Below, piece by piece: positions 22,540 through 44,618 of a DNA stretch of 63,798 nt. A program made the position numbers and the translations under genes. A model generated the notes under the pieces. The model had not been told where the DNA came from, ran no database searches, and saw only the letters and a program-made list of their open reading frames with translations. Source of the DNA: Myxococcales bacterium (GTDB lineage Bacteria; Myxococcota_A; Polyangia; Fen-1088); the NCBI GenBank assembly GCA_025350815.1, contig JANXXE010000063.1, positions 1 through 63,798 of the forward strand, written 5' to 3'. The number at the start of each line of letters is the position of its first letter. Positions within the stretch are counted from its first letter, which is position 1.

Positions 22540-23697
22540 TCAGGTTGGGGCAAAGAAGCGCTTTAGCGCCAGCACGCGCTTTTCGATCAGGTGCCATGAC
22601 ACCGTGGCCAGGCCGAAGCTGACGGCCGTCATCGTCGCGAAATAGACCAGCATGTGCAGCGTGTGGCGCCCGTCGTCCGTGGCCGGCACCAGGCGCCCCA
22701 GCAGCTGTCCGGTCACCCAAATGTGCAGCGGCAGGTGGAAAATGTAGATGGCGTAGCTGACCTTTCCGAAGGCCCGAAAGGGGGCGAAGGACAGCGCGCG
22801 CGCCAGTCGGCCGCCGGGGCCTGATTGAATGGCCACGGTCAGTACCACGAGCGCGAAGAGCAATCCCATCAGGGTCAGTCCCACCGTCTGCGTCAGTACG
22901 TTGAGGCGGGGCAGTCCCCGGCTTGCCGCGGCGACAATCGCCAGTGAGGTCAGAACCCCCAGCGTGGCCTGGCCCAGTCGGGGTCCAAGCCACGCCACCG
23001 CCCGCGGCTGGCGCAGTGCCAGCGCGCCCAGGGCGCCCAGGGCCAATGCATCCATGCGGCAGAACGTGGCCACGTACACGACGTCGGCGTGTTCACCGGT
23101 CACGCGCAGGGCAATGCGCGCCAACAGCGCGGCGCTTGCGATGGCGATGCACAGGAACGCAAGCCCCCGGTCGCCCAGGCGTCGCACCACGGGTGGCCAC
23201 GCCAGATAGAATTGTTCCTCGACAGCCAACGACCAGCAGTGGCCGAGACCCCCGACGGCTGTGCTCGCGGCGCCCAAGAATGTCCAGTTCGACAGATACA
23301 GCCAGTACCAGGCCTGGCGGCGCATCTCGATCGCCGGCGCGATGGCAGCGGCAGGGGCCAGAACGAAAGCGCCGATCAGCAAAAGGTAATAGAGCGGAAA
23401 GATGCGCAGCACGCGCCGCATGTAGAAGGTGCGTAGGTAAGTGGCGCGTCGGCGGCTGTCCATGAGGATCCCGGTGATGAGGAAGCCCGACAGGACGAAG
23501 AACAGGTGCACCCCGGACCACCCCAGTTCGAACGCGGCGTCGAGTGCCTTGCCCACCAGCGACGTGCTTGTGCCGTCGAGGTGAAACTGGTGGGCCAGCA
23601 CCAGCAAGATGGCGATGCCCCGCACGCCGTCGAGAGCCGCAATGCGCGCCGGGGCCAGCACGTGATCGTGTTCAGGATCGCTCGACCGCGCAGGCAT
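22540..23697 (-). CDS. Acyltransferase-3 (OafA/YrhL-like) membrane protein
   Basis: A 385-residue polytopic membrane enzyme of the acyltransferase-3 family. It has the N-terminal LDGVRGIAILLVLAHQF segment (with the essential His), the WSGVHLFFVLSGFLITGIL segment with an Arg/Ser-Gly-Phe motif, and later RVLRIFPLYYLLL, LSNWTFLG and WSLAVEEQFYLAWP. About ten helices are expected. Members transfer acyl groups from a donor to sugars or lipids at the membrane. It is the last gene of the operon that carries the amino-acid:carrier-protein ligase, 9 bp after the hydrolase stop, so its donor may be a carrier-bound or CoA-bound product of that pathway. Confidence 0.9.
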   Translation of the reverse strand: MPARSSDPEHDHVLAPARIAALDGVRGIAILLVLAHQFHLDGTSTSLVGKALDAAFELGWSGVHLFFVLSGFLITGILMDSRRRATYLRTFYMRRVLRIFPLYYLLLIGAFVLAPAAAIAPAIEMRRQAWYWLYLSNWTFLGAASTAVGGLGHCWSLAVEEQFYLAWPPVVRRLGDRGLAFLCIAIASAALLARIALRVTGEHADVVYVATFCRMDALALGALGALALRQPRAVAWLGPRLGQATLGVLTSLAIVAAASRGLPRLNVLTQTVGLTLMGLLFALVVLTVAIQSGPGGRLARALSFAPFRAFGKVSYAIYIFHLPLHIWVTGQLLGRLVPATDDGRHTLHMLVYFATMTAVSFGLATVSWHLIEKRVLALKRFFAPT

Positions 23698-23706
23698 GGG
23701 GTGGGA

Positions 23707-25485
23707 TCAGGGGCGATCGACGACGTGCTTGGTCAAAAGTTCAGACAGCAGTTTTTGGGCCCACAAGGGTGTGAATGTGTGATCGGGCCCGTCGATGATC
23801 TCGACGGTGACGGAGTTGCTTTCGGGCAGACGCCGCAAACCCTCGCCTAGATGCGCGTGTAGATAGTCGAGCCCCGGGTCGTCCCGGCACAGTAGCAGGA
23901 CAGTCTGCACCCCGCAGGCGATGGTGGCGCGCATGGCCGTCAGTACCTCGTTCTCGGGTTCCAGACCCAGGGCCTGGCGCAGGGGCGACAGTTTGTCCTG
24001 CGCGTGAAACACGATCCGGCTGCCGACAAGATCGAGGGCACGGGGGATGTCCACGTCGCCGCGGGCAAGCTTCAACCAGCTTTCGGTCCGGAACAAAGAG
24101 CGCTTGTAATGTTGCGCGGCCTGAAAGGTTCGGCGTCGGACATCGATGGTGTCTCCTTCCTTCCAGAACAGCGTCTGCGGGTTGATGAGAACCGTGCGCT
24201 CCACGGCGGGGTCGGCCATCGCGGTGTGAAACGCCACATATGCGCCAGAGCAAAGTCCGACCAGGGTGACGCGCTTGACGCCAGCGCGGGCTTGTAAGAA
24301 CGCGATCGCCGCCCGGGCGTCGGGCACAGCCAGCATGGAATAGATTCGTCCACCGGTGGCCCCGCCGCCATCGCTGTCTCCGAGTGAGCCGAGATCGAGA
24401 CGCAGCGACGTGATCCCCCGGGTGGCCCACTGGCGTGTCAGGGGTACGTGCAGCCGGTTGGGTCCAACACTTCGAATGGCCCCTGCGTTCAGCAAGATCA
24501 CCGCTCGTTCCGCGTCTGCCGCTGGAGAGGCCGGTTCGGTCAGCATCCCTGACAGGAGACGCCCGCCAGCCTCGATGAAGACGGATTCTTCGCGCACGGT
24601 CACGCCTGCCGGGGCATCCGGTACGGGGACTGCGGCTGACGTGACCGTACTTGGCCGACCTGCGGTCCTGACAGCCAGTTCGTGGCTGTCGGCGAGCAGC
24701 CAGTCTCGGATGCGGTCGAGCGTTCCATCGGGAATTTCCGACCTGTGGGGATCCTGCATCAGGTCGCGATAGCCGGGGAGGGGTTCGTTTCTCACCTGCG
24801 CGCCCAGCGACTCGAGATGTTGCGGCAGGCGCGGCTCGTCTGGCATGTCGTCGCGCCCGATGATCAGCGCCGCCGCTGCGGGGCATTGCTTGATCTCCAG
24901 CAGATTCAGGGCACGCAGAGATTCCATCGTGGCGGCGGATAGCAAGAAGCCCGCGGCCTCCTCGTCGTTGTCACCGCGGACCGAAGCGGGCGGAAGGTTC
25001 GGCGTCTTCATCTCGCTTTCGGCCGTCAGACGAATCATCTTCATCTCGCGTAGAAAATTTCGTCCGGCAAGACAGGGCGCCCACAGCACCAGGGCGGAGA
25101 CGTCGCGTCTGCCGGTGGCGGCGATCATCGCCAGCGTCGCGCCCAGACGCAGCCCCACCAGGCTTACCGAGGCGACTTCGGACCGATTCATTAGCTCGTC
25201 GGCCGCCGTTCCTATGCTGTCCAACCACGCGCGGACCCGGTCGGGGTCGCGATCGTCGCCCGCTGAGTTGCCGGTGCCATGATAGTCGAAGCGCATGACC
25301 GGCAGACCCGCCTCGGCCAGTCGCATCGCCAGTGCCCGCAGGGTCCGATGGGTGCAGATGGCCTCGTAGCCGAACGGTGGACACAGAACCACCCCGGGGC
25401 CCCGGGCCGGCGCCCGCTCGGGTGGGTGGTACCAGCCGAACAGGGGTTCTTCGGGCCGACCGAACCAAACGGGCTGCATACTCAC
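23707..25485 (-). CDS. Tandem alpha/beta-hydrolase protein (exosortase-associated hydrolase-like)
   Basis: A 592-residue protein with two alpha/beta-hydrolase domains in a row. The first (about residues 1-230) has VVLCPPFGYE and MRFDYHGTGNSAG, but its nucleophile elbow reads GLRLG (Arg where Ser is expected), so it may be inactive. The second (about 290-590) has the elbow GLCSG, with Cys at the nucleophile place, and a late DHTFTPL His segment. These resemble the two hydrolases that often accompany exosortase-linked polysaccharide loci. A Cys nucleophile could cleave a thioester, which fits a carrier-protein pathway, but this is inference. The gene overlaps the GH2 gene by 4 bp and lies in the aminoacyl-carrier operon. 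Confidence 0.75.
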   Translation of the reverse strand: MSMQPVWFGRPEEPLFGWYHPPERAPARGPGVVLCPPFGYEAICTHRTLRALAMRLAEAGLPVMRFDYHGTGNSAGDDRDPDRVRAWLDSIGTAADELMNRSEVASVSLVGLRLGATLAMIAATGRRDVSALVLWAPCLAGRNFLREMKMIRLTAESEMKTPNLPPASVRGDNDEEAAGFLLSAATMESLRALNLLEIKQCPAAAALIIGRDDMPDEPRLPQHLESLGAQVRNEPLPGYRDLMQDPHRSEIPDGTLDRIRDWLLADSHELAVRTAGRPSTVTSAAVPVPDAPAGVTVREESVFIEAGGRLLSGMLTEPASPAADAERAVILLNAGAIRSVGPNRLHVPLTRQWATRGITSLRLDLGSLGDSDGGGATGGRIYSMLAVPDARAAIAFLQARAGVKRVTLVGLCSGAYVAFHTAMADPAVERTVLINPQTLFWKEGDTIDVRRRTFQAAQHYKRSLFRTESWLKLARGDVDIPRALDLVGSRIVFHAQDKLSPLRQALGLEPENEVLTAMRATIACGVQTVLLLCRDDPGLDYLHAHLGEGLRRLPESNSVTVEIIDGPDHTFTPLWAQKLLSELLTKHVVDRP

Positions 25486-28028
25486 GACGGCCGCACCCGG
25501 ATGCGCGTGGAGGTTTCGCTGTTGAGCGCCCGGAGGGAGCCGCGCACCGGGGGATCAGTTCGGGTGGCGTGCAACCGGATGGTTCGCGTCCCGCCCGGCG
25601 CCAGATGGAAATAGTTGTCCGACGGGCGCAGATCGCCGGCGTCGATCGCGATCGCCTGGGCAAAGCGCCGCGAGCGCACAGTCAGGGCGTAGCCACCGTC
25701 GACCGATGCCACGGCCTCGGCCTCCATTCCCACGTCGGCCTCACGCTGCGCGGGAAGGCCTGCGGGAAAGTGAAAGGCCTCGCCCAGTGTTTCCCCGGTC
25801 GCTGACAACAGCGTTGCGACGGTCAGCTCGTGTGCCGGCGGGCCGAATCGATATGCGCGCGTTATATCGACGAAGCCGTCCAGCAACGCCGCCGCCGTCA
25901 GGGTGATGCCCCCCCGGGGCGCCACCTGAACCGGTGTCTCAACGTGCGCGACCGTTGTCTCGCCCCGCCCGTACAGAGCCAGACGCAGTCGTGCGGCGAT
26001 CGGCGCGGCCGTGTCATTTACGACGTGCACGGACACGCCATTGAGGCCTTCGTCTGAAAAGAAGACTGTCACAGGTGCCAGAATCCGGCGCAGGTAGTGA
26101 TAGGCCGCCTTCGGCCACCCGGTTGCATCCACCACGCCCCATCCGGCCCCCGGCCACAGGTCGCGCAGGAAGTACACCAGCGCGCCCCGGCACGTCGACC
26201 CTGGCCTGCGCCATTCGGCGAAGGCGGCGGCCATGACCTCGCCTGTGACCACACGACCAAGCGCCAGGTATCGCTCATGATCCGTCGCGCGCAGTTCCAG
26301 GGGATCGACACCGAACAGCAAGCGCAAGTAGTGATCCCGTATGTCGTCGAAATCCCAGCCAGCGCCCAGATCGCGGGGCACACGCGCTTTCCACGCCGGC
26401 TGGTGCACGCGCAGGGCTGTGCCGTCGGGCGACACCAAACTCAATGTGCGCTCGTCCGGAATGTTGGCGAATCCCAGGCACTCGGAGGCAAAGCGGACAT
26501 TCGAGCGGCGCGCGTCGTCCATTGATCGACGGTAGGCACCGACGCCGTAGTATGAACTGGTCCCGACGTCGACCTGATGGGGGAAGTCGCCGCCGCTGGC
26601 GCTCGATGGCCAGTAGGGGACGTCGGGGCACGTCCGCGCGCACAGGGCCGGGAACTCGCTGCGGAATACAGGTCGGTTCCAGTCGGCGCGCGGGGCGCCC
26701 CACATGGCGGCCTGTTGCTCGCCCTCGCTGTCGCCGCAAAGCAGGGCCAGCGACGGATGCGCGCGCAAGCGCTCAAGGGTCTGTGTGACTTCCCTGAGGG
26801 CGGACGCTGTCCAGTCGCTGTCCCCTTCTGGGTAGTCCATGTTGGCGAACATGAAATCTTGCCACACGAGAATGCCCAACTCGTCGCACAGTTCGTGAAA
26901 GTCCGCGCATTCGTAAACCAGTGGCCCGCCCACGCGCAGCATGTTCATCCCGGCATCGCGCACCATCTGCAAGGCCTCGTGGTAGGCCGCACGCGGCGAG
27001 GACAGCGTCACCACGTCGAGCGGCGTCCAGCACGCGCCCCGGCAGAAAATGGGCACGCCGTTGACGGCGATACCGAAGGACGGATCATCCGGCGTGGGCC
27101 GGTGCAAGTCGACGGTCCTGAATCCGACGCGTCCCGCTGGCAGGTCGATCGGGCCGGTGGCGGCGTCGACGGCGACCGATACACGGTACAAAGGCTGGTC
27201 CCCGTGGCTGTGCGGCCACCACAGGGCGACCTGCGGGACGACAACCGTCCCCGTCAACAACACTGTCCCGTCGCTTTGTCGCTGGGTGCGCAGGGGTTGT
27301 GTATGGATTCCATCGGGCCCGGCCACAGTGGCGCTTGCGCCGTCGACTGTCCCCGCGGCAGCCGGCTGCAGCGTGGCGGTCAGTTCCAGTGTGCCGTCGG
27401 TGCCGCTGACACGCGGGCGCAGGTTGATACCCGCCAGGGACGGGCGGGAACGGTATTCCAGGCGGATGTCGCGCCACGGGCCCACTGGCGCTGCCGGGGG
27501 CGACCAGCCGGGCGTGCGACCAAGAAGGGTGGTGCGGAACCAGCGCAACTGCTGGTGCTCGACCATGGGTGCACGCCAGCGTGGGCGTGGGCGTCGGATC
27601 GCCAGCAGGGGATCGAGGGCCTTGAAGCGAATGCACAGTTCGTTGCTGGAGCCCCGTCGCAGGGCCGCGGTCACGTCGACCTCGTGGGCGACGAACATGT
27701 TCTCCGAATGCAGGACAGCCCGCCCGTTGAGCCACACGTCCGCCACGGTTGCGAGACCGTCCAGGCACAGCACGGCGGGCCCGTCGGTCGTCGCGGCTAG
27801 GAAGCGGCAGCGGTACCACCAGTCGCTGCCATCAAAGCGTCGGGGTGGCCCGTCCCACGTCCACTGCCCGGCGGCGCGCAGGGCGTCGGCCACCGTCCCT
27901 GGCACGGATGCCGGAATCCACGCCGAATCAGCGACGGCCAGCGCCCCTGGATCGACCGCCTGGCCGGGGTCTGTGGCGCACACCTGCCAGCCGTTTGCGA
28001 GGTGCTCGAACAACGGCGCCTCAGCCAC
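25482..28028 (-). CDS. GH2-family glycoside hydrolase, beta-mannosidase-like
   Basis: An 848-residue protein with the order of beta-mannosidases: sugar-binding domain (about 1-190; VPGTVADALRAAGQ, DWWYRCRF, VWLNGRAV), immunoglobulin-like domain (VGPWRDIRLE) and a TIM barrel (about 300-600), then C-terminal sandwich domains. The expected catalytic acid/base lies in CGDSEGEQQ near residue 425, where canonical enzymes have Asn before the Glu; here Ser is in that place. A nucleophile Glu is plausible in FASECLG. No signal peptide is evident, so it acts in the cytoplasm or is exported by another route. It overlaps both neighbours by a few bases within the operon, which points to a sugar substrate in the pathway, perhaps editing a glycan precursor. 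Confidence 0.85.
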   Translation of the reverse strand: MAEAPLFEHLANGWQVCATDPGQAVDPGALAVADSAWIPASVPGTVADALRAAGQWTWDGPPRRFDGSDWWYRCRFLAATTDGPAVLCLDGLATVADVWLNGRAVLHSENMFVAHEVDVTAALRRGSSNELCIRFKALDPLLAIRRPRPRWRAPMVEHQQLRWFRTTLLGRTPGWSPPAAPVGPWRDIRLEYRSRPSLAGINLRPRVSGTDGTLELTATLQPAAAGTVDGASATVAGPDGIHTQPLRTQRQSDGTVLLTGTVVVPQVALWWPHSHGDQPLYRVSVAVDAATGPIDLPAGRVGFRTVDLHRPTPDDPSFGIAVNGVPIFCRGACWTPLDVVTLSSPRAAYHEALQMVRDAGMNMLRVGGPLVYECADFHELCDELGILVWQDFMFANMDYPEGDSDWTASALREVTQTLERLRAHPSLALLCGDSEGEQQAAMWGAPRADWNRPVFRSEFPALCARTCPDVPYWPSSASGGDFPHQVDVGTSSYYGVGAYRRSMDDARRSNVRFASECLGFANIPDERTLSLVSPDGTALRVHQPAWKARVPRDLGAGWDFDDIRDHYLRLLFGVDPLELRATDHERYLALGRVVTGEVMAAAFAEWRRPGSTCRGALVYFLRDLWPGAGWGVVDATGWPKAAYHYLRRILAPVTVFFSDEGLNGVSVHVVNDTAAPIAARLRLALYGRGETTVAHVETPVQVAPRGGITLTAAALLDGFVDITRAYRFGPPAHELTVATLLSATGETLGEAFHFPAGLPAQREADVGMEAEAVASVDGGYALTVRSRRFAQAIAIDAGDLRPSDNYFHLAPGGTRTIRLHATRTDPPVRGSLRALNSETSTRIRVRPS

Positions 28029-28263
28029 CCGCGGTCAGTTGCTCCACGGCGGCGCGGATCGCGGCGATGCTCTCGAAGACGCTGCGTTTGAGCATGCTGT
28101 CGGGGAATTCAATGTTGAAGGTCCCCTCGATGGCCAGCATGACATTGACGCTGGCGTGGGAGGTCATCCCCGCCTGGTACAGATCGGCGTCTTCGGGCAG
28201 CGTGGCCGCGTCCTTCGACAGGCGGCCGTGTTCCTTCAGGATGTTCCGTATGCGTTCGGTCAT
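28021..28263 (-). CDS. Small acyl/aminoacyl carrier protein
   Basis: An 80-residue carrier protein. The phosphopantetheine attachment serine is S35 in AGMTSHASVNVML, where typical acyl carrier proteins have a D-S pair and here T-S. Predicted four-helix fold with acidic surface. The GMTS form of the motif is what I know from the carrier partners of amino acid:[carrier protein] ligases, and the ligase is three genes upstream. The 4-base overlap with the phosphopantetheinyl transferase gene and overlap with the GH2 gene show tight coupling. It probably receives an amino acid on its pantetheine arm. Confidence 0.87.
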   Translation of the reverse strand: MTERIRNILKEHGRLSKDAATLPEDADLYQAGMTSHASVNVMLAIEGTFNIEFPDSMLKRSVFESIAAIRAAVEQLTAGG

Positions 28264-28679
28264 GGCGGCGAGTCGACACTTTCCTGTTTTTTGCCCGCGA
28301 GCGCCACCACCATCGCGATCGCGTAGTCACCTTCGTGGCTGAGACTGACGGACCAGGAACCGAGGTGCGCGGCGTCCGCGTGCCCGCGGGCGGCCCCGTG
28401 CAGGGTCAGGCTGCACGCACCCGAGGCAGAACGGCGGACCTCGACGCCCCTCGGATCAAGACCGCCGTCGGCAACACCCAGTGCCTTGAAGGTCGCTTCC
28501 TTGGCCGCCATGCGTGCCGCGAACCGACCGGGGGCGGTGGCCGGGTCGGTGCCGCAGTAGCGGATTTCGTCGTCGGTGAAAAGGCGCCGCGTGAAGGCTT
28601 CGCCAAAGCGATCGATGGAATTCGCCACCTGACTTATCTGGACGAGATCCACTCCGATACGCAAGGGCCCGGCTGCCAC
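28260..28679 (-). CDS. AcpS-type 4'-phosphopantetheinyl transferase
   Basis: A 139-residue protein if read from GTG at 28679 (a TTG at 28688 is an alternative; the longer frame from 28742 overlaps the DUF1839 gene). The family marks are visible: IGVDLVQISQVANSI with the metal-binding Asp, RLFTDDEIRYC, and RFAARMAAKEATFKALG with the catalytic Glu-Ala-x-x-Lys. SVSLSHEGDYAIAMV closes the fold. It loads the CoA-derived phosphopantetheine arm on a carrier protein; the carrier protein gene directly follows with a 4-base overlap and is the obvious target. This looks like a dedicated, not the housekeeping, AcpS. Confidence 0.88.
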   Translation of the reverse strand: MAAGPLRIGVDLVQISQVANSIDRFGEAFTRRLFTDDEIRYCGTDPATAPGRFAARMAAKEATFKALGVADGGLDPRGVEVRRSASGACSLTLHGAARGHADAAHLGSWSVSLSHEGDYAIAMVVALAGKKQESVDSPP

Positions 28680-28684
28680 GTCCG

Positions 28685-29713
28685 TCAAATCTCTGCGCCC
28701 CCGGCGTACCGGGCGAGCAATACATTCATGCCCCGCTCCCACGCAAGCGCCATCTCATCAAAGTGCGGCCCGAAGTCGACCGTTCGCTTGCCCATCACCG
28801 TTCGTGCGGCCTTGAGGATCAAGGTCTTCGCCGACGTTGAGATCGCCCCGAAGGCCGCGATCGCGGGATCCAAATCCTCGTCGCCCTCGGACCGCAGCCA
28901 CTCCAGATACTGCGCCGCCACCTCGAACGCCGCCCCCAACTGCCGCACGGTCGCGAAGGCGTAGGCGTGGTAGGTCGCCAGCCCCTGTTCCTGCAGATGG
29001 GGGATGTCCTGCGTGAATTGCTGGCAGAACGCCGCGATTGGGTTGCGCGCGGGCAGCCGTCGCAGATGCCGGGTCAGCAGCCTGCGCGAGTGCGCCGCCA
29101 ACGCCGGCGTCGGCAATCTTTTCAAACGGTCGATGCGGATGAGTTCGGCAAACAGCGGCATGAAGGTCGGGTCGGGCGCCGCGCCCAGTCGGAACAGGTG
29201 GCTGAAGTCGTCGCCCTCAAGTGTGTAGTACCCGGCGTTGTGAAAATAGCCGAGGCGCCGCTGTTCCACATCGACGTCCTGAATGACGATGGTGGTCTTC
29301 GTGTGTTGTGTGCGGTAGTCGGTGCCCCGCGTGTCGGGCAAGAAGAACGCATCCGCCTCCGTGCTGACTAACTTGCCTGCCGCCAGGTGGGTGAGCGACT
29401 GGTCGAGGATGGGTCGCCAGACGTTGAGCTCTTGTACGTCGATGCCGTACAGATCCCACAGGTCGGCCGCGGGTGGCTTGAAGAAGGTCCACTGGTCGGT
29501 TTCAAAATCGACGGCCAGTGTGAACGGCAACATGGCCAGGGGTTCCAGCCCCAGCGCGTGCACGACTTCGATCCAGATGTCGACGTAGCAGTTCTTTTCG
29601 ATCCAGGCGCGATCGTCGGCGTGCAGCGCGTGGCGCCGATAGGTGGCGGGATCCAGCGACAGGACCGCCGCGCGGCTCACGGCCACAGTTGCTCGCGCAC
29701 CGTTTTGGGCCAC
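28685..29713 (-). CDS. DUF1839-family protein
   Basis: A 342-residue protein of the DUF1839 family, known mainly as a genomic companion of amino acid:[carrier protein] ligases. Conserved-looking stretches are ALHADDRAWIEKNCYVDIW near residue 30, DFETDQWTFFKPP near 75, ADAFFLPDTRGTDYRT near 122 and YFHNAGYYTLEGDDF near 155. Residues 122-135 plus the paired Asp residues hint at an enzyme or a transferase acceptor fold, but no catalytic role is established. It overlaps the ligase gene by 37 bases. A role in moving the amino acid from the carrier to its acceptor is a fair guess from context. Confidence 0.85.
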   Translation of the reverse strand: MAQNGARATVAVSRAAVLSLDPATYRRHALHADDRAWIEKNCYVDIWIEVVHALGLEPLAMLPFTLAVDFETDQWTFFKPPAADLWDLYGIDVQELNVWRPILDQSLTHLAAGKLVSTEADAFFLPDTRGTDYRTQHTKTTIVIQDVDVEQRRLGYFHNAGYYTLEGDDFSHLFRLGAAPDPTFMPLFAELIRIDRLKRLPTPALAAHSRRLLTRHLRRLPARNPIAAFCQQFTQDIPHLQEQGLATYHAYAFATVRQLGAAFEVAAQYLEWLRSEGDEDLDPAIAAFGAISTSAKTLILKAARTVMGKRTVDFGPHFDEMALAWERGMNVLLARYAGGAEI

Positions 29714-30606
29714 TGCGATGGCACGAAACCGTGCGTCTTGAACAGCGCCATCACCACGCGTTCAAGGCCGAAACCCAAGCAGGCCGTGTGCGCCACCTCG
29801 CCCGAGGGCAGCTTGATGCCGAAGATTTTCCCGAAATGGTCCTGGTGGTAGTTGAATGAACAGACGGCGGTCGGCTTTTCGCGCGAGATAACCGGGATCA
29901 ACACCTCGAACTTCAGTTTCTGGTCCTTCTGCCCCTTTGCCAGCATGCGCCCGCCGCGGCCGAAGAACGGGTCGGTCGCCACGTCCGCCTGCGCGGGAAG
30001 CTCCAGCGCGCGCAGCAAGTCCACGCCCCGTTGCAGCCACATGTCGCGCCAGGTGACCACCATGTCCGGCGTACCCACGCGCACAAACTCGCGCACGCGG
30101 AATGCCTGCATGCGCGTGGGTTCTGGCGAGGGTTCGTGCCGAAACACCCAGTTCTGCATGTCGACAAGGCGGCCGTCGGCCGGAACCACGCCGGTGAAGC
30201 TGGGGTAGACCGGATAACACGCCGCCGGAATCAGGACGACGTCTGTCATCCCCTGTAGATGCGCCCAGGGTTTGTCCTCGTGAAGGCACGACTGCAATTC
30301 CAGGTGATGCGCCTCCGTGCCGAAAAAACTGAAGACCGTGCCGGCGAGCTGGGGGAAGGAATCCAAAAACTCGCTGTCCTGCAATACCTTGCGATTGAGG
30401 ATCGGGGGGAACAGCATCTTTTCGGCGCCGTCGTCGCGGGCCACCCGTGTCACGGCGTCGTCGAAGCGCGCCAGGACATCCTCGAATACGTGGTTGCGGC
30501 CGAACGCGCCGGGCACGCCGACCGGGATGATCAGTTTGTGTCGGACCAGCTCGTCGTGAAACTTTGCCGGATCGAAATCGTCGAGACGGGTGTTGGATGA
30601 CGTCAT
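29677..30606 (-). CDS. Amino acid:[carrier protein] ligase (SerRS-like class II synthetase homologue)
   Basis: A 309-residue enzyme like the catalytic core of atypical seryl-tRNA synthetases but without the tRNA-binding arm. Class II motif 2 is WVFRHEPSPEPTRMQAFRVRE (residues about 153-173, quoted only as FRHEPSPEPTRMQ) and motif 3 is CLGFGLERVVMALF (276-289). C130, E173 and C276 are placed to be the zinc ligands that bind the amino acid amino group in this family. Studied homologues adenylate Gly or Ala and pass it to the pantetheine of a small carrier protein. Both the carrier and its phosphopantetheinyl transferase are in the same operon. The gene begins 4 bp after the dehydrogenase stop. 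Confidence 0.92.
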   Translation of the reverse strand: MTSSNTRLDDFDPAKFHDELVRHKLIIPVGVPGAFGRNHVFEDVLARFDDAVTRVARDDGAEKMLFPPILNRKVLQDSEFLDSFPQLAGTVFSFFGTEAHHLELQSCLHEDKPWAHLQGMTDVVLIPAACYPVYPSFTGVVPADGRLVDMQNWVFRHEPSPEPTRMQAFRVREFVRVGTPDMVVTWRDMWLQRGVDLLRALELPAQADVATDPFFGRGGRMLAKGQKDQKLKFEVLIPVISREKPTAVCSFNYHQDHFGKIFGIKLPSGEVAHTACLGFGLERVVMALFKTHGFVPSQWPKTVREQLWP

Positions 30607-30610
30607 GGAA

Positions 30611-31765
30611 TCATCTGTTCTTGAAGACCATCAGCATCGATGCGTTCTTGGCGTAGATGCGGTCGTTGCCAATCATCAGGGCGGCCGAGTGGGCGTCGCG
30701 CAACTGTCGCCCCAGACTGAAGTCCGAGTCGTTCTTGTATCCCATGATCCCGCAAATCAAGAGCGCCTTGTGTACGATCTCGGCGACCAACTCGGAGCAC
30801 GAGATCTTCAGGTTGTTCATCTTCAGCGCGAAACCCATCGTCAGCAGGGCCTCGTTGCCCTCGGGTGACTTCAGCAGGGTGTCGCATTCCGCGGTCACGT
30901 CGTGCACGTTGGCGCGCATCGATTGCAGCTTCGCCGACAGTTCGGCGAGACGCAACGCAGTTGGTGGCAACTGTCCCGGTTTCTGGCGGGCCTGCGCCGA
31001 TACGAAGGCGCTGGCGCGTGCGACTGCATCCGCGGCAATGCCCAGCCACACGCCCGACCACAGGATATGTGAGAACGGCACCATCGTCTGGCTGGAAGAA
31101 TCGGCGAACGAGCCGGGCACGATCTGTTCCTCCGCTCCGGAGGACAGCATCTTGAATCCGGGGCTGCACGTTCCGCGCATGCCCAATGTGTCCCACGACG
31201 TCGTCTGCGCGATCGTGTAGTCAGTCTTGCGAAGAAGCACCAGAACCTGATCCCCGCCCGGGGCTTCGGGATCCCGACGAGCGGTTACCAGCAACGCGTC
31301 AGCGTGCTGGCCGTAGGAAATCGTCGTGGCGTCTTTGTTCAGGGTGAACCGGCCGCCCGCACGTTCGACCGCGCATACGCTTGTTCGGGTGTCACCGCCC
31401 ACGCCGACCTCGGACGTGACCGAAGCGATCAGTCCCTGGTCCCGTGCGAGATCTTGCAAGTACTGCCGAAAGAAGGGGGACGTCAGACCGTGGCGCACGA
31501 GACACGCGACCTGAATCTGGTGCATGGCGAACACCATCCCGGTCGAAGCACACTGCTGCGACAGGGCCGTGCACATCGCCGCCAGATCCGCGATGCCGCA
31601 GCCCAGACCGCCGAGATCCCGCGGCACGAAGGTGGCCAGTAGGCGTTCTTCCCGAAGTGCGTCCAGCGCCTCGCGGGGGAACCGCGCCTTGGCGTCGACA
31701 TCGGCGGCATGTGGTGCGGCCACGCGGGCGGCTATGCGTTGCACACGGTCCAGCGGATCGTTCAC
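30611..31765 (-). CDS. Acyl-CoA dehydrogenase family flavoprotein
   Basis: A 384-residue FAD-dependent dehydrogenase of the acyl-CoA dehydrogenase fold: N-terminal helical domain (PRDLGGLGCGIADLAAMC), central beta domain (GLIASVTSEVGVG, FTLNKDATTISYG), and C-terminal four-helix domain (LQSMRANVHDVTAECD, ELVAEIVHKALLICGIMGY, YKNDSDFSLGRQLRDAH). It is first in the operon with the amino acid:carrier ligase. Members of this fold oxidise aminoacyl groups on carrier proteins in natural-product paths (prolyl-carrier oxidation is the known case), so an aminoacyl-carrier substrate fits better than fatty acyl-CoA. The catalytic base was not confirmed. Note no electron-transfer flavoprotein gene beside it. 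Confidence 0.88.
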   Translation of the reverse strand: MNDPLDRVQRIAARVAAPHAADVDAKARFPREALDALREERLLATFVPRDLGGLGCGIADLAAMCTALSQQCASTGMVFAMHQIQVACLVRHGLTSPFFRQYLQDLARDQGLIASVTSEVGVGGDTRTSVCAVERAGGRFTLNKDATTISYGQHADALLVTARRDPEAPGGDQVLVLLRKTDYTIAQTTSWDTLGMRGTCSPGFKMLSSGAEEQIVPGSFADSSSQTMVPFSHILWSGVWLGIAADAVARASAFVSAQARQKPGQLPPTALRLAELSAKLQSMRANVHDVTAECDTLLKSPEGNEALLTMGFALKMNNLKISCSELVAEIVHKALLICGIMGYKNDSDFSLGRQLRDAHSAALMIGNDRIYAKNASMLMVFKNR

Positions 31766-35097: not shown

Positions 35098-36795
35098 ATG
35101 CGAAACAGACTTTTGCTGACCACACTGGCGCTGTCTGGCTGCACCGGTCTTATCGGCATGTCCGAATACCCGCCCGGTGATCGCGGGACTGACATGACCA
35201 AGAAGCCGGGCGCCGGTCCGACCACCCCAACGGCCAACGTGCCGCCGGCCGCGGGTGTCGCCAGTTTGCTGGAACCCGGCCTGTTCGGGAAAAGCGGTCT
35301 GCGTCGGCTGTCACGGGCCGAGTACCGGACGACGATCGAGGATCTCACGGGTGTCGATGTGACGGCCGACCTGGCCCTGCTGCCGGGCGATGCGGCGTCG
35401 ACATACTTCGATAACGACTACACCTCACAAGTGGCGTCCGCGGCCCTGGTCGAAGCCCTGAAGGCGATCGCGGACCATGTGGGGGAACGCGTGGCGTCCG
35501 ACCCGGTGCTGCGCGCGCGCGTGGTTCCTTGCACGCCCATCGGCCCCGGAGACGGTGCCTGTTTCCGGACGTTCATTCGCACGTTCGGCCGTCGGGTCCT
35601 GCGGCGCCCGCTGGCCGATGATCTGGTGGAACGCTACGCTACGTTGCAACGTTTCGCCGTGCAGGACGCCAGCTTCGCGTCCGGCGTGCAACTGGTCGTG
35701 CGGGCGATGCTGCAGGATCTGGAATTCCTGTATCGGGTCGAGATTGGCACCCCCGTGGCCGACGCACCGGGCCTGTTTCGCCTCGACGGCTGGGAACTGG
35801 CGACGCGGCTTTCCTACTTGCTGTGGGGCAGCGCGCCCGACGACGAACTGCTGGGCCGTGTCGACACCAAGAAGCTGGACGCGCCGGCCGACGTGCGTGC
35901 GGCGGCCGTGAAGATGTTAGGGGATCCGCGTGCCGTGGCCCGCGTCGCGCGCATGCACGCCCTGTGGCTGGCCTATGATCGATTGCCCCACGATCCCGCG
36001 TTAGCGACGGCCATGCGCACCGAAAGCGATGCGCTGATCAAGCGCGTGGTGTTCACGGACAAACGCCCCTGGACGGATCTGTTCAGCGCCACGAACACAT
36101 TTGTCGACGCGGGGCTGGCCAAGCACTATGGATTGCCGGCACCGGCGGGCAACGCGGCGGCCTGGGTGGACTACGGCAGCAACGGGCGCCGCGGCATCCT
36201 GTCCCACGGCAGCGTGCTGTCGAATGGGCTGAAATTCGGCGATACCAGCCCCGTGCAGCGGGGGATCTTCTTGCGCAACCGGTTGTTCTGTCAGGACATC
36301 CCGCTGCCCAGCGCATCGACCGTCAAGGTCAACGTCGACCAGCCGCCTCAGGGCGGCGACAAGAACGCGTGCAAGGCCGACCGCTATGCCGAGCACCGCA
36401 TGGAGGTGGCCTGCGCCGGTTGCCACCGCTTGATGGATCCGCTGGGCATGGGTCTGGAAAACTACGACGGCCTCGGTCGTTTTCGCACCGTCGAGCCGGG
36501 CAAACCCGAGTGCAAGATCGACGGCGCGGGCGAGGTCCAGGGAATCACCGGTCCGAACACCTTCAACGGTCCGGGCGAACTGGGCGATCTCGCCATTCGT
36601 TCGGGCGCGCTGGGTCCGTGTTTCGTGTCGCAGATGTACCAGTTTGCGCTGGGCCGCCCGGTGCGCGATCAGGACGACGGGCAGGTCCTCAAAGCCCTGG
36701 CGGCGCGCTTTTCAGCGGATGGGCGCTTTCGCCTGGACGATCTTCTGCTGGATCTCGTCTCCGCGCCCGCCTTCCGTCACCGCGTGGCCGAATAG
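35098..36795 (+). CDS. DUF1592/DUF1588/DUF1585-type lipoprotein
   Basis: A 565-residue protein. The start at ATG 35098 (after AGGAAA) gives a lipobox (LALSGC at about 13), so it is an outer-surface or periplasmic lipoprotein. The order of segments is RRLSRAEYRTTIEDLTG, FLYRVEIG, LFRLDGWELATRLSYLLWG, a DUF1588-like GRRGILSHGSVLSNG and DQPPQGG region, and a CxxCH-like CAGCHRLMDPLGMGLENYD haem-type motif. Such proteins are common in Planctomycetes and Myxococcota beside DUF1552 proteins, as here. Function is unknown; degradation of polymers has been proposed by others. Confidence 0.85.
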   Translation: MRNRLLLTTLALSGCTGLIGMSEYPPGDRGTDMTKKPGAGPTTPTANVPPAAGVASLLEPGLFGKSGLRRLSRAEYRTTIEDLTGVDVTADLALLPGDAASTYFDNDYTSQVASAALVEALKAIADHVGERVASDPVLRARVVPCTPIGPGDGACFRTFIRTFGRRVLRRPLADDLVERYATLQRFAVQDASFASGVQLVVRAMLQDLEFLYRVEIGTPVADAPGLFRLDGWELATRLSYLLWGSAPDDELLGRVDTKKLDAPADVRAAAVKMLGDPRAVARVARMHALWLAYDRLPHDPALATAMRTESDALIKRVVFTDKRPWTDLFSATNTFVDAGLAKHYGLPAPAGNAAAWVDYGSNGRRGILSHGSVLSNGLKFGDTSPVQRGIFLRNRLFCQDIPLPSASTVKVNVDQPPQGGDKNACKADRYAEHRMEVACAGCHRLMDPLGMGLENYDGLGRFRTVEPGKPECKIDGAGEVQGITGPNTFNGPGELGDLAIRSGALGPCFVSQMYQFALGRPVRDQDDGQVLKALAARFSADGRFRLDDLLLDLVSAPAFRHRVAE

Positions 36796-36799
36796 GAGC

Positions 36800-38269
36800 A
36801 TGAACATGGTACGGACCATCAGCCGACGAGCCATCCTGCGCGGTGCTGGGGGGACAGCCATGGCGCTGCCGTTCTTGGACATCATGACGCCCCGGCGCGT
36901 CGCCGCGCAGGTTGCCAAGCCGATGCGGTACTTCGTCGGTTTCTGTGGATCGTCCATCGCCAACAAGGTGGATTTCTACACGCCCAAGAAGACGGGCCGC
37001 GATTTCGAGCTGACCGTTGCGCTGCAGGCGTTGGGTGGGCGTACGGTCGATGCCATGAAGTACCCCTGGGACAGCCTGGCCGGCGAGACGTCGGTGGTCT
37101 CCAATCTGAAGATTCCCTGGGAGCCCAATATGCCGGGAGGGCGGCCCGCGGTGTTTCATTCCTCCAGCCCCGGGCCACTGCTGTCCGGCGTCCGTTCAAC
37201 CGACAGCATTCCCGACTGCCGTGGCGTGACCTCCGACGAGGTGGTCGCCGCCGCCGTCGCAGGTAAACAGAAATTGCGCTTTCGGTCGTTGGCGTATCGC
37301 GTGCAACCCGAGCGTTACCGAACGAGTTATCCCGGCAACAAAGGGTACATGTCCTTCCGCAATGCTGCGGCCGGCGGCATCGAGCCGAACACGCCCATTG
37401 TCAGTCCGCGCCTGGCGTACGATCAGATGTTTTCGGGCTTCAAGCCGGCCGACGAAAAGGACGCAACGGTCCGGCTTTACGCACTGGAGAAGAATCGCAG
37501 CGTGCTGGATCTGGTGCGCGACAACAGCGATCGCTTGCTCAGGCGCCTGGGCACCGGCGACCGGCAGCGGCTGCAACGTCATTTTGACGAGATCCGCGAT
37601 CTGGAGACGCGCCTGGTGCAGATCCCCGAGATGATGCCGGCGATGTCGTGTCAGGTGTTGCCTGATCCCGGCAGCGAGCCCACCGCCGTTACGGGCCTGA
37701 CGAATACCTACGCCGCCGATCGTCCGGTCGGATACACCGGCGAAGATCAGCGCGCCCGCGTGCTGTCCGATCTTGTGTACATGGCGTTTGCCTGCGACAT
37801 GACGCGCGTCGCGACCCTGATGTTCACCTTCCCGATGTGCTTCATGAGCGTCGAGCCACTGATTGGCAAGAAGGTCGACCTTCACGATTTGGGTCACGGT
37901 GGCGGCAACGACCAGAACATCGGCGAGGCCATCGGCTGGCACATCAAACACGTCGCCTACCTGGCGGACAGACTGCGCCGCACGACCGAGGGCGACGGCA
38001 ACCTGCTGGACCGCAGCGCCCTGGTGTTCGTGAATGAAGGTGGCGTCGGCTTCGACCCCGAACAGAACGCGACGTCCTCCACGCATTCGACCGACAGCAT
38101 GACGGCCCTGATCATGGGTGGGCGGGCCGGCGGGTTGAAGCCCGGTCAGCACGTCGCGACCAGCAAGCGCCATCCCGCCGAGGTGTTGATCACCGCGATG
38201 AACGCGGTCGGCGTCACCACGGACACGCTGGGCGAGGTCAAGGGTGGCGTGCGCGAATTGATGATGTAG
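36800..38269 (+). CDS. DUF1552 secreted protein with twin-arginine signal
   Basis: A 489-residue protein starting at ATG 36800; ATG 36806 is equally possible because the ribosome site AGGAG sits at 36794-36798. The N-terminus has the twin-arginine motif SRRAILRGAGG, so Tat export in folded form is expected. The body matches DUF1552 (MRYFVGFCGSSIAN, SRFRNAAAGG-like residues, and HDLGHGGGNDQNIG). It starts 4 bases after the DUF1592 stop, and the pairing of these two families is very common in Myxococcota. A Zn or other metal enzyme is likely but unproven. Confidence 0.87.
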   Translation: MNMVRTISRRAILRGAGGTAMALPFLDIMTPRRVAAQVAKPMRYFVGFCGSSIANKVDFYTPKKTGRDFELTVALQALGGRTVDAMKYPWDSLAGETSVVSNLKIPWEPNMPGGRPAVFHSSSPGPLLSGVRSTDSIPDCRGVTSDEVVAAAVAGKQKLRFRSLAYRVQPERYRTSYPGNKGYMSFRNAAAGGIEPNTPIVSPRLAYDQMFSGFKPADEKDATVRLYALEKNRSVLDLVRDNSDRLLRRLGTGDRQRLQRHFDEIRDLETRLVQIPEMMPAMSCQVLPDPGSEPTAVTGLTNTYAADRPVGYTGEDQRARVLSDLVYMAFACDMTRVATLMFTFPMCFMSVEPLIGKKVDLHDLGHGGGNDQNIGEAIGWHIKHVAYLADRLRRTTEGDGNLLDRSALVFVNEGGVGFDPEQNATSSTHSTDSMTALIMGGRAGGLKPGQHVATSKRHPAEVLITAMNAVGVTTDTLGEVKGGVRELMM

Positions 38270-41193: not shown

Positions 41194-41251
41194 TGGTAAT
41201 TCGATTGTTTTCAATGTTTGATCCCCCTCAGTGGTAGTAACAGCGGCGGCC

Positions 41252-42163
41252 ATGAAGAAAACCACGCAGTTTCGCCGCCTCCTCGCGTCGCCCCAGGTGG
41301 AATTCCTGATGGAGGCGCACAATGGCCTGTCCGCCAAGATCGTCGAGGAAGCCGGATTCAAGGGCATCTGGGCCAGTGGCCTGGCCATGTCGGCGGGGCT
41401 GGGCGTGCGCGACAACAACGAGGCGAGCTGGACGCAGGTGGTGGAAACGGTCGAGTTCATGGCGGATGCCACGACCGTTCCCATCCTGATGGATGCGGAC
41501 ACCGGCTACGGCAACTTCAACAACGTGCGTCGCCTGGTGCGCAAGCTGGAATCGCGCGGCGTCGCGGCGATGTGCATCGAGGACAAGCTATTTCCCAAGA
41601 CCAACTCGTTCATCCGCGGCGAGCAACAGCCGCTGGCCCGGATGGATGAATTCGCGGGCAAGATTCGCGCTGCCAAGGACACCCAGGTGGATCCCGACTT
41701 CACGGTGGTCGCGCGGGTCGAGGCGCTGATCGCCGGTTGGAGCATGGACGAGGCCCTGCGCCGCGCCTATGCCTACCGAGAGGCGGGGGTCGACGCGATC
41801 CTGATCCACAGCAAGCAATCGAGCCCCGACCAGATCCTCGAATTCTTACGCAACTGGGACACGGGCTGTCCGGTTGTCATCGTGCCGACCATTTACTTTG
41901 CCACACCGTCCAGCGTGTTCGAGCAGGCGGGGGTGAGCCTGGTCATCTGGGCGAACCATCTGATGCGTTCGGCGATCACCGCGATGCAGGCGACGGCCGC
42001 GACCATCATGCGCGAGCGGTCCGTGGCCAGCCTCGAACCCAAGATTGCCTCGCTGGCCGAGGTATTTCGCCTGCAGGGCGAGGCCGAGTTGGCCGCCGCC
42101 GAGGAAAAGTTCCTGCCCAAGACCGCCCCGATAGTGACTGACAAGGTGCCGGGTGCTGTCTGA
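41252..42163 (+). CDS. pepM: Phosphoenolpyruvate mutase (C-P bond forming)
   Basis: A 303-residue enzyme that rearranges phosphoenolpyruvate to phosphonopyruvate, the entry step of nearly all phosphonate synthesis. The diagnostic [11 protein letters not shown] motif lies at residues 110-120. Other expected residues align with those known for the mussel enzyme at a constant offset: D54 (RDNNE), D81 and D83 ([12 protein letters not shown]), E110, N118 and R155 (VARVEA). The [10 protein letters not shown] segment near the end is also typical. The motif separates it from methylisocitrate and oxaloacetate lyases. Start at ATG 41252; a GTG at 41231 is an alternative. The next gene overlaps by 11 bases. 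Confidence 0.95.
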
Positions 42164-43343
42164 CCGCGCGCGCGCGCTGACCGGTTCGCAGACGTCGGGG
42201 ATGCGCAACCGCGCCCGCAAGCTGCGCGCCGAGGGTGTCCACGTCATCAATTTTGCGGCCGGCGAGCTGGATCAGGACACCAGCGATTCGATCAAGGGCG
42301 CCGCCCGGCAGGCCATCGACGCGCGCCGCAACCAGTACACCGACACGCTGGGCATTCGTGAGCTGCGTGAGCGCCTGGCCGCGCGGGTCACGCACAAGAC
42401 CGGCGCGACCTATGCCGCCGAAGAGGTGGGCTTCACCGCAGGTGCGAAACAGGCGCTGTTCAACGCTGTTTTCGTGTCGTTCCAGGGCAACGACGAGGTC
42501 ATCATTCCGGCGCCCTATTGGGTGACGTTCCCCGAGCAGGTGCGGCTGGCCGGCGCAACGCCGGTGTTTCTGCCCACGGCGCACAACGACTTTCGCATCG
42601 ACACCGACGAGCTGGCGCGCGCGATCACGCCGCGCACCCGGGGCATCATTCTGAACACGCCGCACAACCCGACGGGCGCGGTTTGTTCGGCGGCGGTGCT
42701 GGAGGGGCTGGCCAGGCTGGCCCTGCAGCACGATCTGACCGTCGTCTTCGACGAATGCTACGACGAGCTGGTTTACGAGCCGGCGGTCCACCACAACATC
42801 GTGAAGCTGGTGCCCCAGATGAAGGCGCGCACCATCTTGATAGGCTCGTTTTCGAAGACCTATTGCATGGCTGGCTGGCGCGCGGGGTACATCGCGGGGC
42901 CCCAGGCGACAGTGAAGGCCGTCGCGAATCTGCAAAGCCACACGGCGTCGAATGCCTGCAACATCGTCCAGTACGCCACGCTGGCCGCCCTTGAGCCAGG
43001 CAACGACAAGTTCGTCGCTGGCATTCGCGCGCAACTGCGCGAGCAACGGTCCGTGGCACAGGCCTGTCTGGCCGCCATCCCCGAGCTGTCGTGTGTCGCC
43101 CCCGAGGGCGCCTTCTATGTGTTTCCCGATGTGAGCCGCCTGCTGACGATGTCCTTCCGCGGCCAGCGACCAGAAAACGTCGACACCCTGGCGGAGATGC
43201 TGCTGGAACACGCGCACATTGCCGTTGTCCCGGGCTCCGCGTTCGGTTCCGACCGCCATGTCCGCATCTCGTACGCGATCCCGGCCGACGAGATCAAGAC
43301 GGGCTTTGCGCGCCTCGCAGGTTTTGTTAAGTCCTTGGTGTGA
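42153..43343 (+). CDS. Class I PLP aminotransferase, likely acting on phosphonopyruvate
   Basis: A 396-residue fold-type I aminotransferase from GTG 42153. The PLP lysine is K235 in [21 protein letters not shown] (171-175) and D200/Y203 ([10 protein letters not shown]) bind the cofactor, and R in SYAIPADEI-adjacent HVRISYA binds the carboxylate. It resembles aspartate/aromatic aminotransferases. Because it overlaps the PEP mutase gene and no decarboxylase is present, I infer it converts phosphonopyruvate to phosphonoalanine, driving the unfavourable mutase step. The gene's stop overlaps the next start (GTGA). Substrate identity is inference. Confidence 0.88.
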
Positions 43344-44617
43344 GCCTGGATTCCCCAAAATCGCACGGGCCCGCCCCGACCCCGGGTGTGGTCCTGTTCA
43401 TGGGCATGGTCCGCCGGGGCGAATTCGAGGCCCTGCAGCGCCGGGGCCTGGCGCTGGGCGTTCTGGTCGACACCAACAGCAAGCACCGCCTGGCTGACGT
43501 GTCGGGTTTTGCGCTGGTCGAACGATTCGATTTTTCGCGACCGCTGGCCGAACTTATCGAAGCCGTCCGTGGCATTCGGGCGCGCGTTGGCGTCGCGTGC
43601 CTGTTCAACGTGATTGAATTCTACGTGGCCCAGACGGCCGACGTTGCCGCCGCCCTGGGCCTGCCCAGTATTTCGCCGGCGGCGGCGCGCCTGTGCCTGG
43701 ACAAAAGCATCATGCGCCAGCGCTTCCAGGAAAGGATCGCCACCGGGGCGGCCGCGCGGTTCCAGGTCGTCGCCTCCGAGGCCGACTTGCTGGCCGTGGC
43801 CGACAGATTCGGATACCCGGTGTTTCTGCAGCCGTCGAACGTCTCGGCCAGCATGTGGTCGACGCGCAACAACGATGCCCAGACGTTGCTGGGCAACTAC
43901 CGGACGATTTGTAACGACGTGCCTGCCTATTACGAAAGGCTGGGGCAGAAGGGCAAAAGCCTCGACGTTGTCGTGGCCGAGTATCTCGATGGTGGCAACA
44001 CGTCGATAGACTGCCTGGTCGAACAGTCGGGCCAGGTGCACACGACGCCGGTGGTCGATGTGTTGACCGGCCAGGACGTGGGCATCGACGACTTTCACCA
44101 TTTTGCCCGGCTGTTGCCGTCGCGATTGCCAGCCGCCGGGCAGCACGAACTGGACCGGCTGGCGGTGGCGGGCGTGCAGGCGCTGGACATCACAGCGTGC
44201 GCCTCGCACGTCGAATTCATCGGCAACCGCCTGGGGGAAATTGCCGCGCGGCCCGGCGGCAACCGCCCGCGCATTTTGGAACTGGCGTACGGCATCGACG
44301 AGCTGTTCGCGTACCACCAGATACTTCGTGGTCAGCGCCCCGATCTGCGCGGCGATCGCAACCTGGCGGCGGCCGTCGTCACGCCGTTCCCCGCGCGGGC
44401 CGGCACCTTGCGGTCAATTCGGCACCTCGACCGGCTGGTCACCCTGCCAGGCTACCTGTACCACGAGCTGCGCGGGCAACCCGGTCAGGCGGTGGGCCTG
44501 GCCAAGGGCGGTTACCGCGCGCCGCTTTACGTCGAGCTGTCGTCGCCGGACGCCGAAACGGTCCGGGGCAGCGTGTACGAAATCGCCTCCTGGACGGATC
44601 TGTACGAGCTGGACTGA
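43340..44617 (+). CDS. ATP-grasp ligase
   Basis: A 425-residue protein of the ATP-grasp superfamily. An N-terminal preATP-grasp domain (VVLFMGMVRRGEFEALQ, and LGVLVDTNSKHR) is followed by the two-lobe ATP-binding fold: PSISPAAARLCLDKSIMRQRF near 120, FGYPVFLQPSN near 160, VVAEYLDGGNTSIDCLV near 215 with acidic metal ligands, and HVEFIGNRLGEIAARPGGNR (about 292-311) in the second lobe. This layout is shared with L-amino-acid ligases such as BacD. Next to the PEP mutase and aminotransferase, it likely forms a peptide or amide bond on phosphonoalanine. It starts at GTG in a 4-base overlap. Confidence 0.87.
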   Translation: MSLDSPKSHGPAPTPGVVLFMGMVRRGEFEALQRRGLALGVLVDTNSKHRLADVSGFALVERFDFSRPLAELIEAVRGIRARVGVACLFNVIEFYVAQTADVAAALGLPSISPAAARLCLDKSIMRQRFQERIATGAAARFQVVASEADLLAVADRFGYPVFLQPSNVSASMWSTRNNDAQTLLGNYRTICNDVPAYYERLGQKGKSLDVVVAEYLDGGNTSIDCLVEQSGQVHTTPVVDVLTGQDVGIDDFHHFARLLPSRLPAAGQHELDRLAVAGVQALDITACASHVEFIGNRLGEIAARPGGNRPRILELAYGIDELFAYHQILRGQRPDLRGDRNLAAAVVTPFPARAGTLRSIRHLDRLVTLPGYLYHELRGQPGQAVGLAKGGYRAPLYVELSSPDAETVRGSVYEIASWTDLYELD

Positions 44618-44618
44618 A

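Follow-up and report, generated by a model that had tools for sequence, protein, structure and literature searches.

The stretch analysed here, the 63,798-nt contig JANXXE010000063.1 of a Myxococcales bacterium (assembly GCA_025350815.1; hereafter the window), carries at positions 22540-31765 of its minus strand a tight operon of eight genes that includes an amino acid:carrier protein (aa:CP) ligase, and this operon is one copy of a widespread, conserved aa:CP ligase cassette, far from a chance association of genes. The operon is real, conserved and of a known but uncharacterised kind, and it can now be given a sharper, testable mechanism: on balance, we favour the view that a small amino acid is loaded on the carrier protein of the cassette, is oxidised there and ends up in an amide with an amine that may belong to a sugar. 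New here are the fold match of the DUF1839 protein of the set to the condensing enzymes CcbD, CtaG and AziU3, the missing catalytic acids of its acyl-CoA dehydrogenase (ACAD)-like flavoprotein, the pairing of DUF1839 with a GH2 glycosidase, the nature of a double alpha/beta hydrolase and the optional status of a membrane acyltransferase-3.

Spread and conservation of the gene set

The set was followed through 113 modelled ligase loci (L032-L144), with our own codon-bias gene calls. Two were left out before counting, namely L066, on the contig of L055, and L119, a contig-edge Azospirillum locus presumed redundant; L036-L044, in which the ligase stays under the family cut-off, were set apart; they make up nine of the 13 such matches in the phylum. 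The remaining 102, in which the ligase reaches at least 380 bits against our own model, were counted, and 68 of these have 8 kb on both sides. The profile scan of genome contigs took in the best 80 of at least 576 confirmed stretches, so that the sample is biased towards loci close to the query and contains related species that do not count as independent cases.

Among the 68 loci, the ligase is accompanied by the carrier in 67, the ACAD-fold protein in 66, DUF1839 in 64, GH2 in 63, the N and C halves of the hydrolase in 58 and 55, respectively, and an adjoining AcpS-type phosphopantetheinyl transferase (PPTase) in 26. All six core parts (carrier, ACAD, ligase, DUF1839, GH2 and hydrolase) occur together in 55/68 loci, which supports the initial annotation in its reading of one combined gene set. 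The outcome that it named as refuting, absence of these genes from all related neighbourhoods, does not hold for GH2 and hydrolase, which are conserved beside the ligase; the acyltransferase-3 does not pass this check, a window-like copy being present in just four. DUF1839 and GH2 are bonded in occurrence: both are present in 63 loci, DUF1839 alone in one, GH2 alone in none and neither in four. In the exception, L060, the contig does carry GH2, carrier and hydrolase, at a distance of about 12 kb. No match to DUF1839, GH2 or the hydrolase was found in the nine below-cut-off loci, where an ACAD match occurs in one (141 bits) and carrier matches in four (23-29 bits).

Copies of the core set are spread over Alpha-, Beta- and Gammaproteobacteria and Myxococcota, with a further one in an actinomycete metagenome-assembled genome (MAG). 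In the 377 genomes of the phylum of the window, the ligase model passes its cut-off in 21 and DUF1839 is found in 20, with 19 genomes holding both (about one expected by arithmetic); DUF1839 stands without an over-cut-off ligase in G070 only, and the ligase without DUF1839 in G011 and in G258, where it lies on a 3.5-kb contig. The genome of the window has a single match to each. All eight window genes are found, on one strand and in a different order, in L092, a Steroidobacter MAG. On plasmids, 94 ligase records were retrieved at E <= 1e-5, and annotated plasmids of Azospirillum, Shinella and Mycetohabitans have the genes for carrier, ACAD, ligase, DUF1839 and GH2 lined up together, two of the three with the hydrolase. 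Furthermore, when ligase, DUF1839, GH2, ACAD and hydrolase are compared by their pairwise distance matrices, the correlations are 0.42-0.79 (0/200 label permutations each), with 0.79 for DUF1839-ACAD, 0.74 for ligase-DUF1839, 0.70 for DUF1839-GH2 and the hydrolase weakest. For pairs that include carrier or PPTase, the lowest value is 0.21 (PPTase with the hydrolase C half, 5/200 permutations) and the highest 0.84. These values were computed without a neutral marker and are not corrected for shared host descent.

Loading, oxidation and condensation

The ligase (309 aa) matches the solved structures 3mey and 4h2w (E 3e-71 and 3e-73); its residues 22-306 align to 3mey 44-329, which corresponds to a class II core like that of seryl-tRNA synthetase (SerRS) without the tRNA-binding domain. 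Residues C130, E173 and C276, which we take to be the Zn ligands, are kept at >=93% of 105 sequences, and Ser35 of the carrier in 92/92 homologues; here and below, the residue counts cover homologues above self-set score thresholds only and lean towards conserved copies. For aa:CP ligases, a table in PMC9437257 gives Ala, Gly and Ser, and the paper terms their role unknown. A further arrangement is seen in an actinomycete MAG, in which two ligase genes flank the carrier and ACAD genes (L138:9896-13350).

The AlphaFold2 model of DUF1839, built on 46 sequences (pLDDT 94.4), retrieves with Foldseek AziU3/U2, CtaG and CcbD in all of the first 16 rows. With VIA, CcbD comes first (Z 18.9, 283 aligned residues, rmsd 3.5), followed by AziU3/U2 (17.4) and CtaG (17.1); the top 14 rows all belong to these proteins, with Z 15.9-18.9 over 266-293 aligned residues, and the next row falls to 8.6. 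BtrH-type structures are not among the VIA rows listed, a listing that excludes nothing. In the homologues, Cys42 is conserved in 92/94, His158 in 94/94, Thr/Ser141 and Lys139 in 93/94 each and Asp169 in 92/94. The match over the whole length of the fold, together with the conserved Cys and His, points to DUF1839 as a carrier-dependent amide synthase. CcbD, as described in the relevant part of PMC12945683, takes carrier-bound proline on its Cys, and the amine of an amino sugar then attacks. At the sequence level, a phmmer search of DUF1839 against the PDB gave chance matches only; DUF1839 was likened to CcbD and CtaG but not filed as a member, because the profile search shows no link of this kind.

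A different role, that of a peptidase or amidase processing the cell wall or a glycan, is suggested from gene context in PMC10318531, which, in its passages on DUF1839, assigns the family to the papain-like superfamily, names a site of Cys, Thr/Ser and His, guesses at a function on cell-wall glycans and does not name CcbD. The papain-like fold and this remark on context speak for such an enzyme, but the nearest folds are carrier-using biosynthetic enzymes, papain-like proteases reach a Z of 7.2 or less against the model, DUF1839 has no N-terminal hydrophobic segment and its gene is linked to ligase and carrier, so that we regard a peptidase as very unlikely.

The flavoprotein has the fold of the acyl-CoA dehydrogenases but has a catalytic Glu at neither of the positions known from that family proper. 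The two Glu positions of 4o5m and 7w0j, presumably the catalytic bases, are occupied in the aligned homologues by Ser/Ala/Thr and Ile/Val in 97/97, and His233, His82 and Asn367 are each kept in 97/97; among the PDB matches is DnmZ (4zxv, E 4.6e-15). In three loci, L076, L092 and L125, a flavin reductase gene adjoins the set and is co-directional with it; in L099 it is also co-directional, with one gene in between. The reductase gene of L087 has another ACAD-like gene as its neighbour, and those of L068 and L116 are encoded on the opposite strand. An oxygenase is likelier than an alpha,beta-dehydrogenase, judging from the lost catalytic acids and from the flavin reductase next to the set in three loci. 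It is unlikely, by comparison, that the enzyme is a true dehydrogenase whose dehydroaminoacyl carrier is released as a small acid or amide, an explanation that concerns the oxidation step only and whose probability overlaps those of the other alternatives. The fold and weak matches to the prolyl-carrier dehydrogenases RedW (36 bits) and 4irn (29 bits) would fit it, but it has to contend with the replacement of both acids in every homologue and with the paired flavin reductases, and glycine has no beta carbon.

Glycosidase, hydrolase, acyltransferase and operon layout

The closest solved structure to the GH2 protein is the beta-mannosidase 6bye (E 1.7e-67, 232 bits). It shares with the beta-mannosidases the domains and both catalytic Glu, E435 (81/84 homologues, Asp in the other three) and E516 (84/84), and since both are kept the enzyme is probably active; it differs from them in its nucleophile motif, SEC rather than the SEY of 6bye, and in an occurrence tied to DUF1839.

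The double hydrolase (AlphaFold2 model, pLDDT 87.7) joins two unlike halves. The N half resembles a lipase as well as feruloyl esterases in its fold (Z up to 24.9) and has, at the place where the nucleophilic Ser is expected, Arg in 64/71 homologues, Gly in six and Asp in one; the C half folds like the dienelactone hydrolase 2o2g (Z 21.3) and keeps Cys412 and His569 in 68/68 each. The halves are fused wherever both were seen (55/55 loci). A pattern of GxRxG in the N half and GLCSG in the C half is common to hydrolase pairs beside polyketide synthase (PKS) and nonribosomal peptide synthetase (NRPS) genes, and because it recurs there the double hydrolase may be a unit whose substrates are acyl groups on a carrier, perhaps a general carrier-associated one. 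Separate hydrolase-2/hydrolase-1 pairs were observed directly after a PKS gene (L177:8451-10144) and directly after PKS and NRPS genes (L183:9004-10703); a fused copy adjoins an NRPS gene in L179:2828-8942, and L184:8683-14114 holds two further fused copies in tandem among mostly unannotated neighbours.

The two halves resemble the exosortase-A hydrolases 2 and 1 (TIGR03101 and TIGR03100), and the operon could thus be a branch of the exosortase-A/PEP-CTERM exopolysaccharide system. In L076, genes for a sugar transferase of the XrtA type (TIGR03013, 558 bits, cut-off 393) and for a PEP-CTERM regulator (TIGR02915, 610 bits, cut-off 503) lie near the set, as does one for a PEP-CTERM protein in L092. 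However, the protein of the window is a fusion whose halves score under both family cut-offs (TIGR03100 130 vs 168.45 bits, TIGR03101 111.1 vs 202.75 bits), no TIGR02602 match at E <= 0.001 was found in the genome of the window, a 97.7% complete assembly, L076 has no double hydrolase within the locus, and an over-cut-off exosortase occurs in 3/21 ligase genomes (G011, G342 and G356) vs 75/377 genomes of the phylum, with no enrichment. Such a branch is therefore highly improbable, and dependence on an exosortase was rejected for the genome of the window, given the absence of an exosortase match.

As for the acyltransferase-3, two of the four window-like copies score just 64 and 87 bits, and the overall count is 5/102; a dissimilar acyltransferase-3 lies just upstream of the carrier in L034, and other kinds were not searched systematically. 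It had been proposed as the transfer enzyme, but the rarity of the window-like copy led to its rejection as core transferase, and DUF1839, judged from its model, is the better candidate for this role.

The eight overlapping genes of the initial annotation were all recovered in place, on the minus strand, and family matches back each of them (Table 1). Its dedicated phosphopantetheinyl transferase is present and can be specified as AcpS-type, while its plural sugar-related genes come down to one GH2 gene. The spacing from 31765 down to 22540 is +4, -37, -58, -4, -8, -4 and +9 nt, with starts taken from the list of open reading frames (ORFs), so that the larger overlaps may be start-site artefacts. 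In a simple hydropathy scan the acyltransferase alone among the eight proteins has an N-terminal hydrophobic segment and looks membrane-bound; because the others have none, the chemistry of the operon is probably cytosolic. The Pfam scan of the eight proteins reported no condensation (C) or adenylation (A) domain of modular NRPS.

Table 1. Genes of the operon in the window, in order of transcription
Feature	Position	Strand	Family match
ACAD-fold flavoprotein, probably oxygenase/oxidase of carrier-bound amino acid	30611..31765	-	PF02771/PF00441
Amino acid:carrier protein ligase, SerRS-like, without tRNA-binding domain	29677..30606	-	NF005479, 413 bits (cut-off 357)
DUF1839 protein, proposed Cys-His carrier-dependent amide synthase	28685..29713	-	PF08893, 370 bits
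AcpS-type PPTase	28260..28742	-	PF01648, TIGR00556
Carrier protein, phosphopantetheine serine Ser35	28021..28263	-	NF005480, 108 bits (cut-off 72)
GH2 glycosidase, beta-mannosidase-like, start not signal-peptide-like	25482..28028	-	PF22666/PF00703/PF17753
Double alpha/beta hydrolase, two halves	23707..25485	-	TIGR03101, 111 bits + TIGR03100, 130 bits, both under cut-off
Membrane acyltransferase-3, optional part	22540..23697	-	PF01757, 95 bits

The operon is preceded by a 71-aa ORF without Pfam match and by RNase HII-like and HisD-like ORFs (judged from ORF translations), and followed by a Ser/Thr kinase gene. Elsewhere in the window, 35113-38266 (+) encodes a pair of DUF1592/1588/1585-type and DUF1552 proteins, domains best known from Planctomycetes. 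The region 41231-47542 (+), with a PEP-mutase family gene followed by aminotransferase, ATP-grasp protein, MFS transporter and gamma-glutamyltranspeptidase, resembles a phosphonate pathway; the first gene bears the motif EDK(x5)NS.

Proposed route and known systems

In the route that we propose, the AcpS-type enzyme would make the holo-carrier, as its family suggests, and the SerRS-like ligase, as the literature shows for homologues, would adenylate a small amino acid, likely Gly or Ala by prediction, and load it on the phosphopantetheine thiol. The ACAD-fold flavoprotein, having lost the catalytic acids, would oxidise the carrier-bound aminoacyl group, more likely as an oxygenase, by N-hydroxylation or oxidation at Calpha/N, than as a dehydrogenase, and the Cys of DUF1839 would accept this group and hand it to an amine to give an amide, in the manner of CcbD. 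The GH2 enzyme may prepare or trim the amine-bearing glycoside, the double hydrolase may act on the carrier-bound or released acyl through its Cys-His half, and the acyltransferase-3 would serve in an optional late step at the membrane. The transfer of an amino-acid-derived acyl to a glycan, as initially annotated, is thus plausible as transfer to a sugar-linked amine and not by way of the acyltransferase-3.

Several observations weigh against this route. Amide formation is not the only chemistry of this fold, as AziU3 illustrates. The third residue of the triad is Glu in CcbD (in the part of PMC12945683 on its active site) and Thr/Ser in DUF1839 (in the passages of PMC10318531 on the family), and the 46-row profile of DUF1839 finds neither CcbD nor CtaG among PDB sequences at E <= 10. 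Flavin reductase genes occur near 7/102 loci only, and none lies in the operon of the window. No constant gene for making an acceptor, amino sugar or diamine, emerged from the 116 neighbour genes of 13 loci tallied with NCBIfam and Pfam (chosen from 262 genes of 27 loci), which are too spread for one partner; a clustering of stop-to-stop ORFs, holding many out-of-frame ORFs, was used for leads only. Moreover, the set lacks the ACAD gene in L096, the ligase is found without DUF1839 and GH2 in 4/68 loci, two of them (L058 and L101) beside PKS/NRPS genes, and in G070, with no NF005479 match in the genome, L176:6427-12214 has carrier, ACAD, DUF1839, GH2 and hydrolase (truncated where the contig stops) with no ligase between.

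Variant loci show that the set consists of separable modules, one for loading and one made up of DUF1839 and GH2. L101, from Ramlibacter, lacks DUF1839 and GH2 but still has carrier, PPTase, ACAD, ligase and hydrolase, and at L101:8844-20895 this set lies beside a PKS gene and an A-domain gene into which a luciferase-like oxygenase is inserted. L108:757-12798, also from Ramlibacter, is like it, with no DUF1839 within 10 kb downstream; on its contig 1.9 kb precede the ligase, and GH2 is not excluded there. In both loci the loading module is put to another use, in the company of a PKS and an adenylation protein. L118 and L136, which also lack DUF1839 and GH2, are near glycosyltransferases.

The product could instead be a small secreted molecule, the carrier-bound amino acid being condensed with a diamine or fed to a PKS/NRPS line and the sugars being incidental. 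CtaG, which in closthioamide formation carries out a condensation with a diamine, is almost as good a fold match to DUF1839 as CcbD (Z 17.1 vs 18.9), ligase and ACAD stand beside PKS and A-domain genes in L101 and L108, a divergent NRPS gene adjoins L058, and L177 and L183 have unfused hydrolase pairs after PKS or PKS-NRPS genes; we nevertheless judge this rather unlikely, in view of the bond of GH2 to DUF1839 in the 68 loci and of an operon without a reported C or A domain. For the joining of an oxidised aminoacyl group to a glycosidic amine, we tentatively suggest a widespread pathway class in which SerRS-derived ligase, carrier and flavin oxygenase may produce the oxidised aminoacyl thioester and DUF1839 may join its acyl group to an amine of a glycoside processed by GH2. 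If true, several phyla would make N-(oxidised aminoacyl) amino-sugar conjugates that form a new family, by a lincosamide-type condensation re-invented without an adenylation domain. The proposed amide synthase, the DUF1839-GH2 bond and the lost dehydrogenase acids make the mechanism directly assayable.

The aa:CP ligase cassette of Bradyrhizobium and Agrobacterium, reportedly presented by Mocibob in 2010, is the nearest known relative, with ligase, carrier, redox enzyme, a conserved uncharacterised ORF and a glycosidase together. In PMC2922099 (2010), a note added in proof describes the ligase neighbourhood and predicts that an amino acid is amide-linked to a cell-surface amino sugar; it makes no mention of PPTase, double hydrolase or acyltransferase-3, and we infer that its uncharacterised ORF is DUF1839. 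The term undescribed pathway was therefore too strong, and the transfer idea of the initial annotation is close to that prediction. In the open-access literature searched, neither a product of the set nor a link between DUF1839 and CcbD was found. Closthioamide CtaG and azinomycin AziU3 share the fold of DUF1839. Both work in carrier-based pathways, CtaG on a diamine and AziU3 in aziridine chemistry. The lincosamide synthetase (CcbD/LmbD with its carrier) is alike in its carrier-bound amino acid and in a Cys-His condensing enzyme of the same whole-length fold, and its amide goes to an amino sugar, giving the lincosamides; the set of the window differs from it in the SerRS-derived ligase, in the lack of sequence-level similarity and in the additional flavoprotein and GH2.

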